DNA from: Pseudomonas fulva
GTDB lineage: Bacteria; Pseudomonadota; Gammaproteobacteria; Pseudomonadales; Pseudomonadaceae
Reading direction: 5' to 3'
DNA: 64,000 nt
Assembly: GCF_023517795.1 (NCBI RefSeq)
Contig: NZ_CP082928.1
Location: 3,906,001 to 3,970,000 of the forward strand
Shown: positions 18,254 to 55,103 of the stretch, piece after piece
Layout of the letters: each line of letters begins with the position of its first letter
Numbering within the stretch: position 1 is the first letter of the stretch
Made by a program: the position numbers and the translations under genes
Notes under the pieces: generated by a model
Told to the model about the DNA's origin: nothing
The model's database searches: none
What the model saw: the letters and a program-made list of their open reading frames with translations, nothing else

Positions 18254-18778
18254 ATGGCCAACTATGCATACATGGGCAAGGGCATCGTCAGGATGCAGAA
18301 AGAGGGGTCGACCGAACCGGCGATCGACCTCGGCAACGTTTCGAACCTCACCTTCAACGTGAACGAGAACGTCATCAACCTGGCCAACTACCGTACCGCC
18401 GGCGGCGGCAACTACGCCCAGGTGCGCCGCATCGAAACGGTCGAGGTCAGCATGACCCTCACCGACCTCTCGCCCGAGAACCTCGCCATGGTGCTGTTCG
18501 GTACCGCCACGGTTGAGGCCAACGTGGCCACCATCGAAGCGCTTACCACCGGCGCCCAGACCTTCACCATGTTGTTCGAGGGCGTGAACGAGGCCAACAC
18601 CGGCAAGACCGTGAACGTCACCGTGCACCGCCTCAAGGTCGGCGCCTCTCAAGGCCTGGGCCTGATCGGCGACGAATTCGCCGCCCTGGAAGTAACCGGA
18701 GAAGCGCTGCTCGACACCAGCATCACCGACCCGGGACTGTCGCAGTTCTTCCGCGTCGAGATGGACGTGATCACCTGA
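18254..18778 (+). CDS. Major tail tube protein (174 aa)
   Basis: MANYAYMGKGIVRMQKEGSTEPAIDLGNVSNLTFN followed by an alternating beta pattern (VEVSMTLTDLSPENLAMVLFG; EFAALEVTGEALLD) is typical of siphovirus tail tube subunits. It is followed by a strong terminator, after which the accessory segment begins. Confidence 0.85.
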   Translation: MANYAYMGKGIVRMQKEGSTEPAIDLGNVSNLTFNVNENVINLANYRTAGGGNYAQVRRIETVEVSMTLTDLSPENLAMVLFGTATVEANVATIEALTTGAQTFTMLFEGVNEANTGKTVNVTVHRLKVGASQGLGLIGDEFAALEVTGEALLDTSITDPGLSQFFRVEMDVIT

Positions 18779-18782
18779 AAGC

Positions 18783-18956
18783 CTGATCGGCACCGCAGCA
18801 AACGGTCGGGAAACCGACCGATTTATTCCGTTTCACTCAAGCCCTGGCGGGCCATCCCGCCGGGGCTTTTTGTTTTTGGCTGCAGCTAGGGGGCACCCGA
18901 ACGCGCCTTCCCTGGGGCGCTGCTGCAGCCGATCTATTCCAGGGCTATTGCAGGGG
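18783..18956. repeat. Direct repeat copy 1 (R1, ~174 bp)
   Basis: This stretch and 19848-20020 are nearly the same over about 173 bp. Both copies contain, in order, a CGGTCGG/CCGACCG hairpin, a GCCCTGGCGGG terminator with T5, and a GGCTGCAGC...GCTGCAGCC stem (18878-18886 with 18922-18930) with GCGCC/GGCGC inside. The two copies flank the KilA-N gene and the hairpin array. Confidence 0.9.
18841..18871 (+). terminator. Terminator after the tail tube gene (in R1)
   Basis: GCCCTGGCGGG (18841-18851), loop CCAT, CCCGCCGGGGC (18856-18866) and T5. It separates tail tube transcription from the accessory genes. Confidence 0.85.
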
Positions 18957-18963
18957 ATATGCC

Positions 18964-19461
18964 ATGAAGAACGTGATTCCTTTCAACTACCAAGGCCAGC
19001 CGGTGCGCTTCAGCAGCGAAGGCTGGATTAATGCCACTGACATCGCGGCCAAGCACGGCCTTCGCCTCGACAACTGGCTGCGCAACAAGGAAACGATCGA
19101 TTACATCGACGCCCTGGCACGGCATTTAAATACCTCGGTTTCGAGGGATTTAATCCAGAGCCAGCGCGGCCGCGCCGGCGGCACCTGGCTTCATCCCAAG
19201 CTGGCTGTCGCGTTCGCCCGCTGGATCTCGCCAGACTTCGCCGTCTGGGCAGACCTGCACATCGACGCGCTGATCCGCGGCGAGCTGAACGAAAAGCAGC
19301 AGTTCGACAGGGCCTGTAAGCGGCTCAACGATGCCCAGGCCGTTGCAAGCTTGAGCGGGCGTGAGCTGGCCGCGTGGCGCTGGAAGAAGCCGGAGCTGGT
19401 CGAGCAGGTTGAGCACTGGCGCCATGAGCTTCAGCTGACGCTCGGGCTTGAGGTTGCTTAA
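18964..19461 (+). CDS. KilA-N domain protein (165 aa)
   Basis: Residues 1-105 match the KilA-N fold: IPFNYQGQPVRFSSEGWINATDIAAKHG, LDNWLRNKETIDYI, then GRAGGTWLHPKLAVAFARWISPDFAVW. The remainder is helical (RGELNEKQQFDRACKRLNDA). KilA-N proteins are DNA-binding phage antirepressor-like or moron proteins. It lies between two direct repeats after a terminator, so it probably has its own control and came in as cargo. Its stop codon is part of the first hairpin of the array. Confidence 0.85.
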   Translation: MKNVIPFNYQGQPVRFSSEGWINATDIAAKHGLRLDNWLRNKETIDYIDALARHLNTSVSRDLIQSQRGRAGGTWLHPKLAVAFARWISPDFAVWADLHIDALIRGELNEKQQFDRACKRLNDAQAVASLSGRELAAWRWKKPELVEQVEHWRHELQLTLGLEVA

Positions 19462-19847
19462 GGGTAGGCAGATTGTGCCGACCCTTTGAATCTAACCCGA
19501 ACAATCTTCGTGTTCGGCAAAGCAGGAATTCCTGCTTTGGGTCAGGCTGATGGAGCTACCTGGCGCCTTGAGTGAGCAAACGCCAGATCTGGCGTTAGTA
19601 GTTGGTGGCCACGGCAAACCGGGAATTCCCGGTTTGCCGTTGTTTTAACTCTTCTCGGTGGAAGAGTTAGAGGAGAGCGCCGCGCGGGTGCTCAGAATGT
19701 GCGTACTGCCATCGGCTACTGGGTAGCGAACCATGCGAAGCCGCGAATGAAAAGCAAAGCCGGAGTAACGGCTTTGACACCCAAAGCGGGAATTCCCGCT
19801 TTGGGCGTACGGAAGGGTGTCCACTCAATGGACCCATTTCACCGGGA
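19460..19847. repeat. Array of about ten consecutive hairpins/perfect palindromes (non-coding)
   Basis: No gene is seen. Stems in order: 19460-19486; 19497-19517 (CCGAACA/TGTTCGG); 19518-19539 (22-bp perfect palindrome); 19579-19596 (AACGCCAGATCTGGCGTT); 19611-19640 (30-bp perfect palindrome); 19646-19669 (AACTCTTC/GAAGAGTT); 19715-19727 (GCTAC/GTAGC); 19755-19776 (CAAAGCCG/CGGCTTTG); 19780-19805 (26-bp perfect palindrome); 19815-19835 (imperfect). Three palindromes share the centre GGAATTCC inside CAAA..TTTG arms, with paired differences between copies. It may be a structured RNA or a set of protein-binding sites; function unknown. Confidence 0.85.
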
Positions 19848-20020
19848 CTGATCAGCACTTCAGCAATCGGTCGGTGGACCGACCGATTTACCTTGATTCA
19901 CTCAAGCCCTGGCGGGTCATCCCGCCGGGGCTTTTTGTATTTGGCTGCAGCTAGGGGCGCCCGAAAGCGCCTTCCCTGGGGCGCTGCTGCAGCCGATCTA
20001 CGCCAGGGCTATTGCGGGCG
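19848..20020. repeat. Direct repeat copy 2 (R2, ~173 bp)
   Basis: Near-identical to R1 (18783-18956). The differences partly keep pairing: its first hairpin is AATCGGTCGGT/ACCGACCGATT (19865-19888), an 11-bp stem, where R1 has a GAAA loop. The terminator (19906-19936) and the GGCTGCAGC/GCTGCAGCC stem (19943-19951 with 19986-19994) are retained. Confidence 0.9.
19906..19936 (+). terminator. Terminator within R2
   Basis: GCCCTGGCGGG, loop TCAT, CCCGCCGGGGC and T5, the same as the R1 terminator with one loop change. It would end transcripts that run through the hairpin array. Confidence 0.8.
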
Positions 20021-20188
20021 GTTGGAACTAGAACCACAGATCATGGAGGCAGCAATTGCCCTATCTACAGGAGGAAAACAAAACCCCTCACTGGTAGGCC
20101 CTCGCTCGTGCTGTGAGTAAAGCGCACGAGTTGGGCTGAATTGCACCCCCGATCTCTGGCTGAATGATTTCAGCCAGCCAATAAAGCA
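20021..20188. other. Non-coding stretch with two further hairpins
   Basis: CTCGTGC/GCACGAG (20105-20111 with 20124-20130) and CTGGCTGA/TCAGCCAG (20156-20163 with 20170-20177) extend the run of hairpins beyond R2. A 25-codon frame from an ATG at 20043 exists but has no supporting features. Confidence 0.5.
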
Positions 20189-20222
20189 AAACCCCCGAGG
20201 CCGGCCAGCCTCGAGGGTTTTT
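20189..20222 (+). terminator. Strong terminator
   Basis: AAACCC and CGAGGC pair with GCCTCG and GGGTTT around one mismatch, followed by T. It ends the hairpin-rich region. Confidence 0.8.
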
Positions 20223-20297
20223 ATTCCCATTCCTTACAGCACAAGGAACAGAACATTGCTCAATTATAGGCCCAAACACCGGGTCAAGGTAGATGGA

Positions 20298-20417
20298 ATG
20301 ATGCATCCAGAAGACGCTGGCATCGTAGGTAAGCGCTTAGCCAACGCGGCAGTGATTGCAGCTATTGGTTTCAGCTCTGCGGCAATCATCGCGGCGCTCG
20401 GCACGTTGCTTTCCTAA
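20298..20417 (+). CDS. Possible small membrane protein (39 aa)
   Basis: Starts ATGATG at 20298 after AAGGTAGATGG. The product has one hydrophobic helix (ANAAVIAAIGFSSAAIIAALG), like single-span phage peptides or toxins. It lies alone between a terminator and a convergent gene, so the evidence is modest. Confidence 0.4.
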   Translation: MMHPEDAGIVGKRLANAAVIAAIGFSSAAIIAALGTLLS

Positions 20418-20436
20418 AAAGTCAGAGCGCGCAGGT

Positions 20437-20694
20437 CTACACGTCTGTAGTCCGAGCATCCAGCTCGGCAAGATCGCCGGGCGCCTGGTAGTCGGATTTG
20501 GCAGGCTCGATCAAAAGAAAGTCTCTCCCAGATGCTTTGAGCTTTTCGAAAACCTCATCGAAGGCTGCATCAGCCTGGAAAGAGTGAATGGATCCTCTGG
20601 CAGTGAATACATCGACTGCTGCAATCGATTGCGCAGCCAAAACGGTGTTCGCGTCGTCGGTGATGAGGAAGTAGGGGAACCGGGTCTGAGACAT
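20437..20694 (-). CDS. Small opposite-strand accessory protein (85 aa)
   Basis: An excellent GGAGGTCAC ribosome-binding site precedes the ATG at 20694. The protein (MSQTRFPYFLITDDANTVLA...) looks like a small soluble alpha/beta protein. It runs against the late operon and diverges from the C4 promoter, as expected of a moron expressed from the lysogen. No family is recognised. Confidence 0.65.
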   Translation of the reverse strand: MSQTRFPYFLITDDANTVLAAQSIAAVDVFTARGSIHSFQADAAFDEVFEKLKASGRDFLLIEPAKSDYQAPGDLAELDARTTDV

Positions 20695-20818: not shown

Positions 20819-20877
20819 TCACCCGCCTCTGCAAATTCAGAGGTCGGGTTTGGCGACTCGGAAAAGTCAGGCGCACG

Positions 20878-20898
20878 ACGCCTTAATGGCGTTTTTTT
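20878..20898 (+). terminator. Short hairpin plus T7 upstream of the C4 core
   Basis: ACGCC, loop TTAAT, GGCGT, then T-run to 20898. It lies within the leader of the C4 transcript and could attenuate it. Confidence 0.45.
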
Positions 20899-21020
20899 GT
20901 GCCCGCGTTATGGCGGGCCGTGCGTGGGAGTCCTTCGGGGCTGCCGGGTTCCCTGACCCCGGTTCGCCAACCCGCGTACGGTTCGTCACCATCTTTTGGC
21001 GAAGATGTGGCGAACCCTAA
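20886..21020 (+). CDS. Icd-like ORF overlapping C4 RNA
   Basis: The frame MAFFCARVMAGRAWESFGAA... runs through the C4 region and stops at 21018-21020, 18 bp before the antirepressor start. Such frames are the Icd-like reading frames of P1-type immI loci, where icd translation is coupled to ant. A TTG at 20790 would give a longer version. Because it overlaps a structured RNA, protein function is uncertain. Confidence 0.45.
   Translation: MAFFCARVMAGRAWESFGAAGFPDPGSPTRVRFVTIFWRRCGEP
20899..20990 (+). ncRNA. c4: C4-type antisense RNA controlling the antirepressor
   Basis: Conserved C4 features are present: CCCGC/GCGGG hairpin, a GTCC-TTCG-GGGC stem, a CCGGG/CCCGG stem, and the outer pairing of TGCGTGGG with CCCGCGTA. 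GGTTCGCCA (20961-20969) is perfectly complementary to TGGCGAACC (21008-21016). GTCACC (20985-20990) is complementary to GGTGAC (21029-21034), which overlaps the antirepressor ribosome-binding site. This two-site pairing is how phage P1 C4 RNA blocks icd-ant translation. Confidence 0.85.
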
Positions 21021-21038
21021 ACGATCAGGGTGACCACA

Positions 21039-21881
21039 ATGCAAAACGCTCAAGTAATTCCGTTCCGCTTCGAAGCTCGTGAAGTCCGCACCATGTTGAT
21101 CGATGATCAGCCGTGGTTCGTCGCAGCCGACGTGTGCCAAGCACTGGCGATACGCAATAGCCGCGATGCTTTCGCCCGGCTCGACGAGGACGAGAAGGGT
21201 GTCGCTAATGCCGACACCCTTGGTGGTACTCAGAATGTGAGTATCCTTAACGAGTCTGGCCTCTACTCGCTCATCCTCACCAGCCGCAAGGCCGAGGCGA
21301 AGCGCTTCAAGAAGTGGGTGACCGCAGAGGTGCTGCCAGCGATCCGCAAGCACGGCCGTTACGAAGACGAGCAGGGCAAGATGGCCACCCTGATCGGCGA
21401 GACGATTGGCACCGACGGATTCCATATGCTGGGCGCCCTGATTAAGGGAAAGGTCGCCAGCCTGCCGGCCGCTGTGCAGCGAAAAGCCAAATCAAAGATC
21501 TGGTCGCAGACTCACGCCGCGTTCGGTGTGCGCAGTGCGGCCGACATCCCGGCCAGCCAGTTGGACAGCGCCCGCAACTTCATTGCCGCCTACGCGCTTG
21601 AAGGTGAGTGGTTACCCAAGGATGCGCGCCCGAAGATTCTCTCCAGGGAACACCGTGTACTGGGATACCTGGACCTCAATGGCGTTGAGCGCTGGGAGGA
21701 CATTGCTGCAGGAGCCTACATCCTGACGCGCAGGGAGTTCATCGACTCAATGCTGGTTCACTGCGACATGCCAGTGACAACGGACGAGATGTTCGAGTTT
21801 GCGCAGCTTGCGCTGGCCAATCTGAACAGCCGCAGCAACTGCATGGCCGCGCAGCTGAAAGCCTTACGCAAGCGGGACTGA
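21039..21881 (+). CDS. BRO-N antirepressor (280 aa)
   Basis: The ATG at 21039 (MQNAQVIPFRFEAREVRTML) follows AGGGTGA; a GTG at 21030 is possible. Residues 1-105 are a BRO-N domain (WFVAADVCQALAIRNSRDAF, ESGLYSLILTSRKAEAKRFKKWV, TAEVLPAIRKHGRY). The C-terminal part (about 130-280) is an antirepressor-type domain. It should inactivate a phage repressor, and its translation is set by the C4 RNA upstream. Confidence 0.85.
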   Translation: MQNAQVIPFRFEAREVRTMLIDDQPWFVAADVCQALAIRNSRDAFARLDEDEKGVANADTLGGTQNVSILNESGLYSLILTSRKAEAKRFKKWVTAEVLPAIRKHGRYEDEQGKMATLIGETIGTDGFHMLGALIKGKVASLPAAVQRKAKSKIWSQTHAAFGVRSAADIPASQLDSARNFIAAYALEGEWLPKDARPKILSREHRVLGYLDLNGVERWEDIAAGAYILTRREFIDSMLVHCDMPVTTDEMFEFAQLALANLNSRSNCMAAQLKALRKRD

Positions 21882-54392: not shown

Positions 54393-55103
54393 TCATCTAA
54401 GGTGGCGGCCGCCGTTCACGGTCAGGGTGGTGCCAGTGATATAGGGGGTGTCCAGCAGGTAGCGCAGGCTCTGGTAGATCACCTGGGGGCCGGGTTCGAA
54501 GCCCAGGGCGGATTTGCTCAGGGCCTTGGCGCGGTATTGGGCGTCGTCGTCTTCGTTGAACATCAGCAGTGCCGGGGCGATGCCGTTGACCTTGATGGCT
54601 GGCGCCAAGCGCGCGGCGAACGACAGGGTCAGGCTGTCCAGGCCCGCCTTGCTGGCGCAGTAGGCCGGGCGGTTGGCGGAGCCCTTGCGCACCACGTCGT
54701 CGCTGATGTGGATGATGTCCGCCTGCGCGCTGCGCTGCAGCAGTTCGGCGCAGTGCAGGTTGATCAGGTAAGGCGCCAGCATGTGCACGGTGAACAGCTG
54801 CGCGAAGGCCGCCGCTTCCTCGCCAGGTGCTTCGGCGAACCAGGCCGAGGCGTTGTGCACGATCGCACGCAGGCTGTCGGTATGGCGCTTCAACTCCTCG
54901 ATGAAGGCGAGGATGCTGGCTTCGTCGCGGAAATCGGCCTGCAGGGTCAGCGCCCCGCGCTCGCGCAGGCGCTGCAGGGCAGGCTTTTCGCGGCGAAAGG
55001 TCACGATCAGCGGGTGGCCATCGTCGAGCAGGCGCTCGGCGCAATGCAGGCCGACTCGCTGGCTGGCGCCGGTGATCAGGATCGGGGCGTTGCTGACGCT
55101 CAT
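54393..55103 (-). CDS. folM: Dihydromonapterin reductase (236 aa)
   Basis: SDR fold: ILITGASQRVGLHCAERLLDDG, IVHNASAWFAEAPGEE, PAYCASKAGLDSLTLSFA, GTTLTVNGGRHLR. With folE and folX it completes tetrahydromonapterin, the cofactor of phenylalanine hydroxylase in Pseudomonas. Confidence 0.93.
   Translation of the reverse strand: MSVSNAPILITGASQRVGLHCAERLLDDGHPLIVTFRREKPALQRLRERGALTLQADFRDEASILAFIEELKRHTDSLRAIVHNASAWFAEAPGEEAAAFAQLFTVHMLAPYLINLHCAELLQRSAQADIIHISDDVVRKGSANRPAYCASKAGLDSLTLSFAARLAPAIKVNGIAPALLMFNEDDDAQYRAKALSKSALGFEPGPQVIYQSLRYLLDTPYITGTTLTVNGGRHLR

Follow-up and report, generated by a model that had tools for sequence, protein, structure and literature searches.

The 64,000-nt stretch of Pseudomonas fulva DNA analysed here (the window) includes a prophage in which a row of hairpins, at positions 19460–19847, occupies a place where no gene lies, and the question raised by this locus is where such an array comes from and what it might do. 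A sequence-only reading had described about ten consecutive stems, among them perfect palindromes of 22 bp (19518–19539), 18 bp (19579–19596), 30 bp (19611–19640) and 26 bp (19780–19805), and these coordinates proved exact. The row itself was also borne out, as it comprises seven hairpins with at least seven uninterrupted Watson-Crick pairs, compared to a mean of 0.42 (maximum 3) in 647 other 388-nt windows and of 0.22 (maximum 2) in 300 dinucleotide shuffles. A count of about ten units is reached only if H1 (one A·G mismatch), H11 (one-base deletion) and one half-decayed unit are included. Four of the six perfect palindromes of at least 16 bp in the window belong to the array, and RNA folding of positions 19440–19900 yields z = −9.96 for the plus strand and −9.16 for the minus strand. 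The absence of a gene between the stop codon of the preceding KilA-N gene (19461) and the following repeat R2 was likewise confirmed, with no ORF of more than 63 aa in this interval.

The array is located in the late-gene region of the prophage, capsid and tape-measure genes being present in the window. Directly 5' of it lies a KilA-N + ORF11CD3 gene of the D3 orf11 type, identified by domain match (18964–19461, plus strand). Gene and array are flanked by a repeat of about 155 bp, parts of which are 88–92% identical. The first copy, R1 (18800–18954, plus strand), consists of a hairpin, a terminator-like hairpin (18839–18868) and an int-alpA RNA (18879–18944; 37.2 bits against a gathering score of 35.8, a match from a local Rfam scan that is absent from the whole-window Rfam list). 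The second copy, R2 (19865–20018, plus strand), has the same composition (terminator-like hairpin 19904–19933, int-alpA RNA 19944–20008) and would end a transcript reading through the array. Since R1 and R2 each carry a terminator-like hairpin and an int-alpA RNA, the KilA-N gene and the array together resemble a moron unit with set boundaries. Roughly 1 kb beyond the array begin the isrK and C4 antisense RNAs (20825–20993, plus strand, by Rfam; C4 at 20906–20993) and an antirepressor-type Bro-N gene (21030–21881, plus strand), which contains two tandem hairpins of the same class (21195–21221 and 21222–21248). No promoter-like site was found within 18700–20500. Past R2, positions 20156–20221 hold a hairpin of 22 nt as well as a strong one resembling a terminator, and positions 20183–20256 match P. 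aeruginosa phages weakly. The gene 5' of KilA-N (18254–18778) has a distantly related homologue elsewhere in the host genome, near 4178 kb, perhaps in another prophage.

Comparison with known classes of repeats and RNAs did not account for the array. Within 19460–19860, no Rfam family reached its gathering score; the C4 model matches at 20906–20993, outside the array, and the two int-alpA copies (RF02996) are a separate RNA which flanks the KilA-N gene and the array. A further int-alpA RNA is found at the start of a KilA-N gene in another phage sequence (L239). The sequence-only reading had recognised neither a CRISPR array nor a REP-like pattern, and both were in fact rejected: spacings within unit family D3 are 97, 140 and 27 with no constant repeat, and matches in the own genome are confined to the array. 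REP and CRISPR loci are arrays of palindromic or repeated units; in the present array, no repeat is shared among the units, whose sequences vary and find their matches in antirepressor genes. A remnant of one long gene was also rejected, as the units stand in different frames and tblastn with 42 KilA-N-like ORFs gave a best E of 0.003, mainly through hairpin words; H9, H10 and H11 do share one open frame, so that these three might conceivably derive from a single loop with tandem hairpins that has decayed.

The probable identity of the units became apparent from pattern searches outside the window. The pattern CAAAGC-GGAATTCC-GCTTTG, which represents the KilA-N-type palindrome, matched 32 viral contigs, and in 31 of these the match lies inside a KilA-N gene at one and the same position (translations read by eye). 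Four matches to the palindrome pattern occur in the window where none is expected, all of them in the array. Among the signs that would speak against its interpretation, the sequence-only reading had named a lack of homologues next to KilA-N genes; the outcome was the opposite, as homologues lie within the genes themselves. The site lies between the helix ending in ..QELIEEI and the strand ..RGG..GTY, and the hairpin is mostly read as KAGIPAL, in some genes as QSRNSCF. It was single-copy, at up to three mismatches, in all 16 viral records searched out of the 32 matching contigs. A scan of species genomes yielded 83 stretches; 80 were examined, some of which are KilA-N genes, chiefly proteobacterial, and others of which proved to be palindromes resembling terminators, or unrelated genes, from other phyla. 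Palindromes of the form AAAGC-GGAATTCC-GCTTT with A/T tracts were seen in Bacteroidota and Firmicutes records, where they resemble bidirectional terminators.

The hairpin is not confined to this one pattern. Among 45 non-redundant KilA-N genes, retrieved with patterns that lie 3' of the loop (21 of 170 loci were lost to the text rule used for gene finding), the best segment stem falls in the loop in 26, as opposed to 7.5 expected, and the mean z is 1.63 for the loop and 0.20 for the control segment. The classical kilA of phage P1 (L443) has a hairpin at the same kind of loop (z 1.5). When the protein serves as the anchor, 81 of the 105 core cells are paired, compared to 42.1 (sd 5.5), a count that still contains wrong anchors. 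Furthermore, in genes chosen by a loose text rule, two third codon positions that are synonymous in the KAGIPAL frame complement each other in all 33 distinct loops (14 A-T, 12 G-C and 7 C-G); counting all complementary loops gives 39 of 39, made up of these 33, five of the QSRNSCF frame and one (L173) that is probably no KilA-N gene. Conversely, KilA-N genes of the D3 orf11 type, to which the gene next to the array belongs, show no enrichment of the hairpin (4 of 14 distinct genes parsed from 80 loci, 25% being expected). No array was seen by eye downstream of nine close relatives of the adjacent gene, and the array is not general to this gene type.

Bro-N genes contain hairpins of their own at one variable loop. 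Genes were retrieved with peptide patterns placed outside the hairpin, and among 57 distinct loops from them, related ones being counted apart, 46 hold the best segment stem (10.2 expected), with a mean z of 3.15 against synonymous shuffles. The stem core is Watson-Crick paired in 120 of 140 cells compared to 64.2 (sd 5.1) after permutation, in 35 distinct sequences from 69 genes (11 of 80 loci lost). In an alignment of 32 Bro-N hairpins (A4), from which three KREHE-type rows were left out, 91.7% of cells pair and 50 cells are altered on both sides against 14.3 (sd 3.6); covariation amounts to 0.458 against 0.118 (sd 0.021) in shuffled and at most 0.141 in slid versions, kinship among the sequences inflating the covariation counts. 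The number of pair types in this alignment is not above that of shuffles. The encoded amino acids swap in reverse-complementary codon pairs (R/P, T/R, T/S, L/Q, V/H, I/N, A/S), and the swapping residues are the variable ones within an otherwise conserved Bro-N stretch. These results show that KilA-N and Bro-N antirepressor-type genes hold a stem-loop at a constant position, one particular loop of the N-terminal domain, where pairing is kept by compensatory change across genes despite amino-acid change.

A third hairpin-bearing family, P22_AR_N, is less firm, and compensation is weaker there. In eight of nine genes, including ant of phage P22 (L538; z 3.2), codons 49–59 hold the gene's best stem, and only three of the nine best stems are clearly above synonymous shuffles, one being weak. 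The Roi protein of phage HK022 binds inside its own gene; in the unannotated part of HK022, no strong stem was found in four forward ORFs of at least 120 codons, one of them Rha-like by eye. In phage CUS-3 (L535), ‘boundary sequences’ are annotated on both sides of ant and could be relevant to the exchange of such genes.

The gene-embedded relatives also settle how the paired differences among the array units are to be read. These differences had been taken as a sign of selection on structure, and selection on pairing is indeed supported by the genes; the differences inside the array are not independent evidence, because perfect palindromes of equal length can differ only at paired positions. 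The dyad structure and the ideas of a decoy or of binding sites agree with the reading proposed below, but the adjacent KilA-N protein, named there as a possible binder, is of the D3 orf11 type, whose genes show no hairpin enrichment. The link to KilA-N genes was similarly right in that homologues lie inside such genes, but Bro-N and P22_AR_N genes, the orientation of H2, and the local C4 and isrK RNAs with their Bro-N gene had been missed.

Most of the array units were then assignable one by one. H1 (19460–19486, plus strand; AAGGGTAGGCAGATTGTGCCGACCCTT) is a Bro-N-type hairpin whose first 25 nt are those of a Pseudomonas Bro-N gene and which matches the hairpin model with E = 1.1e-6. In its first search it matched the Bro-N gene of one Pseudomonas genome among 199 (E = 6e-4), and against five phage records annotated as antirepressor or anti-repressor the match (E = 5) is alone not significant; a wider pattern found it with 25 of 25 nt in one locus (L530) and also in P. 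guariconensis (L134), where a KilA-N gene with a palindrome follows about 900 bp past the Bro-N match. H2 (19494–19517, minus strand) is oppositely oriented to H1 and matches a Bro-N subfamily hairpin on the opposite strand at 21 of 23 positions (L523). H3 (19518–19539; CAAAGCAGGAATTCCTGCTTTG) is a KilA-N-type palindrome identical over 24 of 24 nt to a KilA-N gene. The palindrome H4 (19579–19596; AACGCCAGATCTGGCGTT) was found exactly in seven contigs, four of which represent one family; in another (L231), H4 sits in the hairpin-bearing loop of a KilA-N gene and matches over 23 of 23 nt including flanks. The 30-bp palindrome H5 (19611–19640) is a variant of H3 that would read KPGIPGL. The arms of H6 (19643–19672), AACTCTTC and GAAGAGTT, are found again within the KilA-N loop of another phage (L239), one of 17 contigs matched by the arms, the others looking like chance. 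The KilA-N domain was confirmed by Pfam in both L231 and L239.

With the exception of H10, the remaining units are less clear. A half Bro-N-type hairpin with a decayed second arm (19686–19701) is a weak match (15 of 16 to L518, 24.3 bits). H9 (19755–19776) is a variant with a GGAGTAAC centre that would read KAGVTAL, and a scan with this centre returned 13 contigs and no KilA-N gene among them. H10 (19780–19805) is a 26-bp KilA-N-type palindrome and a variant of H3, and H11 (19813–19837, plus strand) is a weak Bro-N-type hairpin (10 bits, E = 2.3) with arms resembling those of the window's own Bro-N gene. Overall, stem-loop sequence is shared with the variable loop of antirepressor genes by H1, H2, H3, H4, H6 (arms) and H10, and by H5 and H9 as variants only; the other units are weak or unassigned. 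The exact matches of 25, 24 and 23 nt (H1, H3 and H4) extend over the hairpin and no more than a few bases beyond it. Compared to 100 antirepressor loops the array scores 46.1 bits and compared to 97 other segments of the same genes 20.3 bits; the loops were fetched by protein similarity to genes first found via the array, and the control therefore lies in the contrast with the other segments, not in the match. Apart from segments overlapping the array, only two segments of the own Bro-N gene and one at 28.2 bits reach 28 bits or more. Judged from these sequence matches, the array is very probably a non-coding collection of hairpins from antirepressor genes of at least two families, some of them identical to real gene copies.

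Smaller non-coding clusters exist elsewhere. In Pseudomonas mendocina (L169), a putative tail gene (by eye) precedes one H4-type and one H5-type hairpin, ordered as in the window; next come a short gene, the isrK and C4 RNAs and a Bro-N-like gene, which lies 1.25 kb past the hairpins and has its own hairpin inside; this arrangement is that of the window. In Oceanospirillum maris (L010, the same sequence as L135), one of two non-coding hairpins is of the KilA-N type and the other has 17 nt in common with the hairpin of a P22_AR_N gene starting about 0.3 kb on, with sRNA-Xcc1 just 5' of that gene. All three clusters are located upstream of antirepressor-type genes and contain units of more than one type. 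Stem clusters at three other loci were explained by stems within coding sequence, by terminator-like hairpins or by a further Bro-N gene. No second long array was detected by single-unit patterns in 388–398 Pseudomonas genomes; the palindrome pattern occurred in only five of 398, the own genome included, a class-wide profile search matched one of 274 genomes, and the gene 5' of KilA-N, used as a query, matched 14 of 298.

How these observations fit together can be proposed with less certainty. The hairpin in the genes may be a dyad or stem-loop site recognised by a dimeric or RNA-binding factor, and the single copy of the KilA-N palindrome per phage record fits a cis site. The simplest reader would be the antirepressor itself, with the hairpin as an autoregulatory site. 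The array might be transcribed together with KilA-N, as the 3' portion of an RNA that stops at the R2 terminator, or act as DNA, and its extra copies would titrate the factor that reads the hairpins. Such a bank of decoys could dampen antirepressors, those of rivals above all, and so protect lysogeny. As a whole, this account of gene-embedded sites and an array of decoys is held at slightly less than even confidence, and the decoy mechanism of the array, a proposal built on sequence comparison, likewise falls somewhat short of an even chance. An AlphaFold model of a KilA-N protein (mean pLDDT 87, pTM 0.54) places the hairpin-coded residues in a less certain stretch between helix 45–56 and strand 68–71; its nearest folds are all weak (E > 0.06) and include the DNA-binding DdrC (E 0.07) and Mbp1 (E 0.2), and sequence searches of the PDB led nowhere. 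Against the decoys stand the finding of only one long array, the nine close KilA-N relatives without an array downstream (by eye) and the fact that phages with gene hairpins need no array. Neither is the array purely non-self, because H11 resembles the Bro-N hairpin of the prophage itself. Further points against are the intervals between units that have no assignment, the H9 centre missing from the KilA-N genes scanned, the lack of a promoter-like site within 18700–20500 and the P22_AR_N stems, of which only three of nine are clearly above synonymous shuffles. A bolder version, in which type-specific hairpin tags are control sites of antirepressors and prophages bank the tags of rivals for a sequence-specific superinfection immunity that is neither CRISPR nor repressor-operator, would seem rather doubtful.

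The main rival to the decoy reading is an RNA acting by self-complementary pairing. Antisense control of ant genes is exerted by the C4 and sar RNAs. A transcribed array might likewise act on antirepressor mRNAs, with an array arm pairing to the opposite arm of a matching target hairpin and a translation block or RNase III as the consequence; arm-to-arm pairing is possible because each hairpin is nearly self-complementary. The C4 and isrK RNAs at this locus and in P. mendocina, the sar RNA annotated for P22 ant and the terminator-like hairpins bounding the unit all agree with such a role, and the variation among stems would restrict pairing to matching types. However, H1 and H2 are oppositely oriented, loops such as GATTG are not self-complementary, the same phage is without a partner copy, and intramolecular hairpins should outcompete the duplexes, so that this mechanism is considered unlikely. 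Mismatch statistics of G·U against A·C in KilA-N and Bro-N stems do not separate RNA from DNA. Recombinational exchange could have brought the copies into the array under any reading. A different proposal goes further and treats the hairpins as short dyads for the recombination or conversion of antirepressor genes and moron slots, the array being a by-product of this or else a store of loop cassettes, in either case without a direct part in regulation. Matches which stop at or near the hairpins, tandem hairpins in some loops, encoded residues that are the variable ones in a conserved Bro-N stretch and the boundary sequences around CUS-3 ant are all compatible with it, but compensation at synonymous sites calls for selection or for a strong mutational bias limited to one loop, and the palindrome is single-copy in 16 of 16 records; it is accordingly rated improbable.

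Two further alternatives are far less probable. Rickettsia palindromic elements are dispersed repeats. As with the hairpins described here, they are palindromes within ORFs that can be read in more than one frame, and a similar mobile element tolerated in coding regions could explain the two frames (KAGIPAL and QSRNSCF) at the same KilA-N site as well as the non-coding copies in the window, P. mendocina and O. maris. Unlike such elements, the KilA-N hairpins occur once per phage record searched and at one codon position (31 of 32 matches in KilA-N-like genes, a single copy in each of the 16 records); in other domain families, loops of this kind carry stems of unrelated sequence, and only five of 398 Pseudomonas genomes have the palindrome pattern. 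A Rickettsia-type element was rejected on these grounds, and mobility in this broader sense, already weakened, is now very unlikely. A row of intrinsic terminators or stabilisers of mRNA 3' ends would draw on the terminator-like GGAATTCC palindromes with A/T tracts in other phyla and on a loose terminator scan which H5, and H9 on the minus strand, pass. Yet these two are the only array units flagged, the gene-embedded relatives sit mid-ORF, and sequence identity to antirepressor genes is left unexplained, which makes such a row highly improbable.

The nearest known systems differ in kind. Antirepressor genes of temperate phages are controlled at the RNA level by C4, isrK and sar, and the likeness consists in the C4 and isrK RNAs encoded about 1 kb downstream of the array. 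C4 is a single antisense RNA with an Rfam model, whereas the array consists of hairpins found inside ant-type coding sequences and has no C4 match. Inverted repeats kept in protein-coding genes have been described in the mitochondria of Nematomorpha (PMC6649704); in the part of that report considered here, these palindromes are long, lie in unrelated mitochondrial genes and are not accompanied by mention of a trans array. Literature searches over titles and abstract openings for hairpins in antirepressor genes returned nothing comparable among the matches listed. As far as Rfam and these searches reach, the gene-embedded hairpins and their array are thus a new kind, with a mechanism that we infer. 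Antirepressors decide whether a prophage wakes and whether a superinfecting phage breaks immunity, and a covarying stem-loop in their coding sequences, including the classical P1 kilA and P22 ant, offers a concrete site in model phages that have been studied in depth. It also illustrates clearly how nucleic-acid structure shapes amino-acid sequence. Array units that are hairpins of other phages' antirepressor genes suggest that phages collect one another's hairpin sites, and hint at a new layer of control or at rivalry between viruses.

Leaders similar to that of the KilA-N gene in the window were noticed by eye in PS-1, D3 and PACT201, before KilA-N or other genes and at other positions. Within the window, a second, weaker cluster of six stems is located at 54642–55041.
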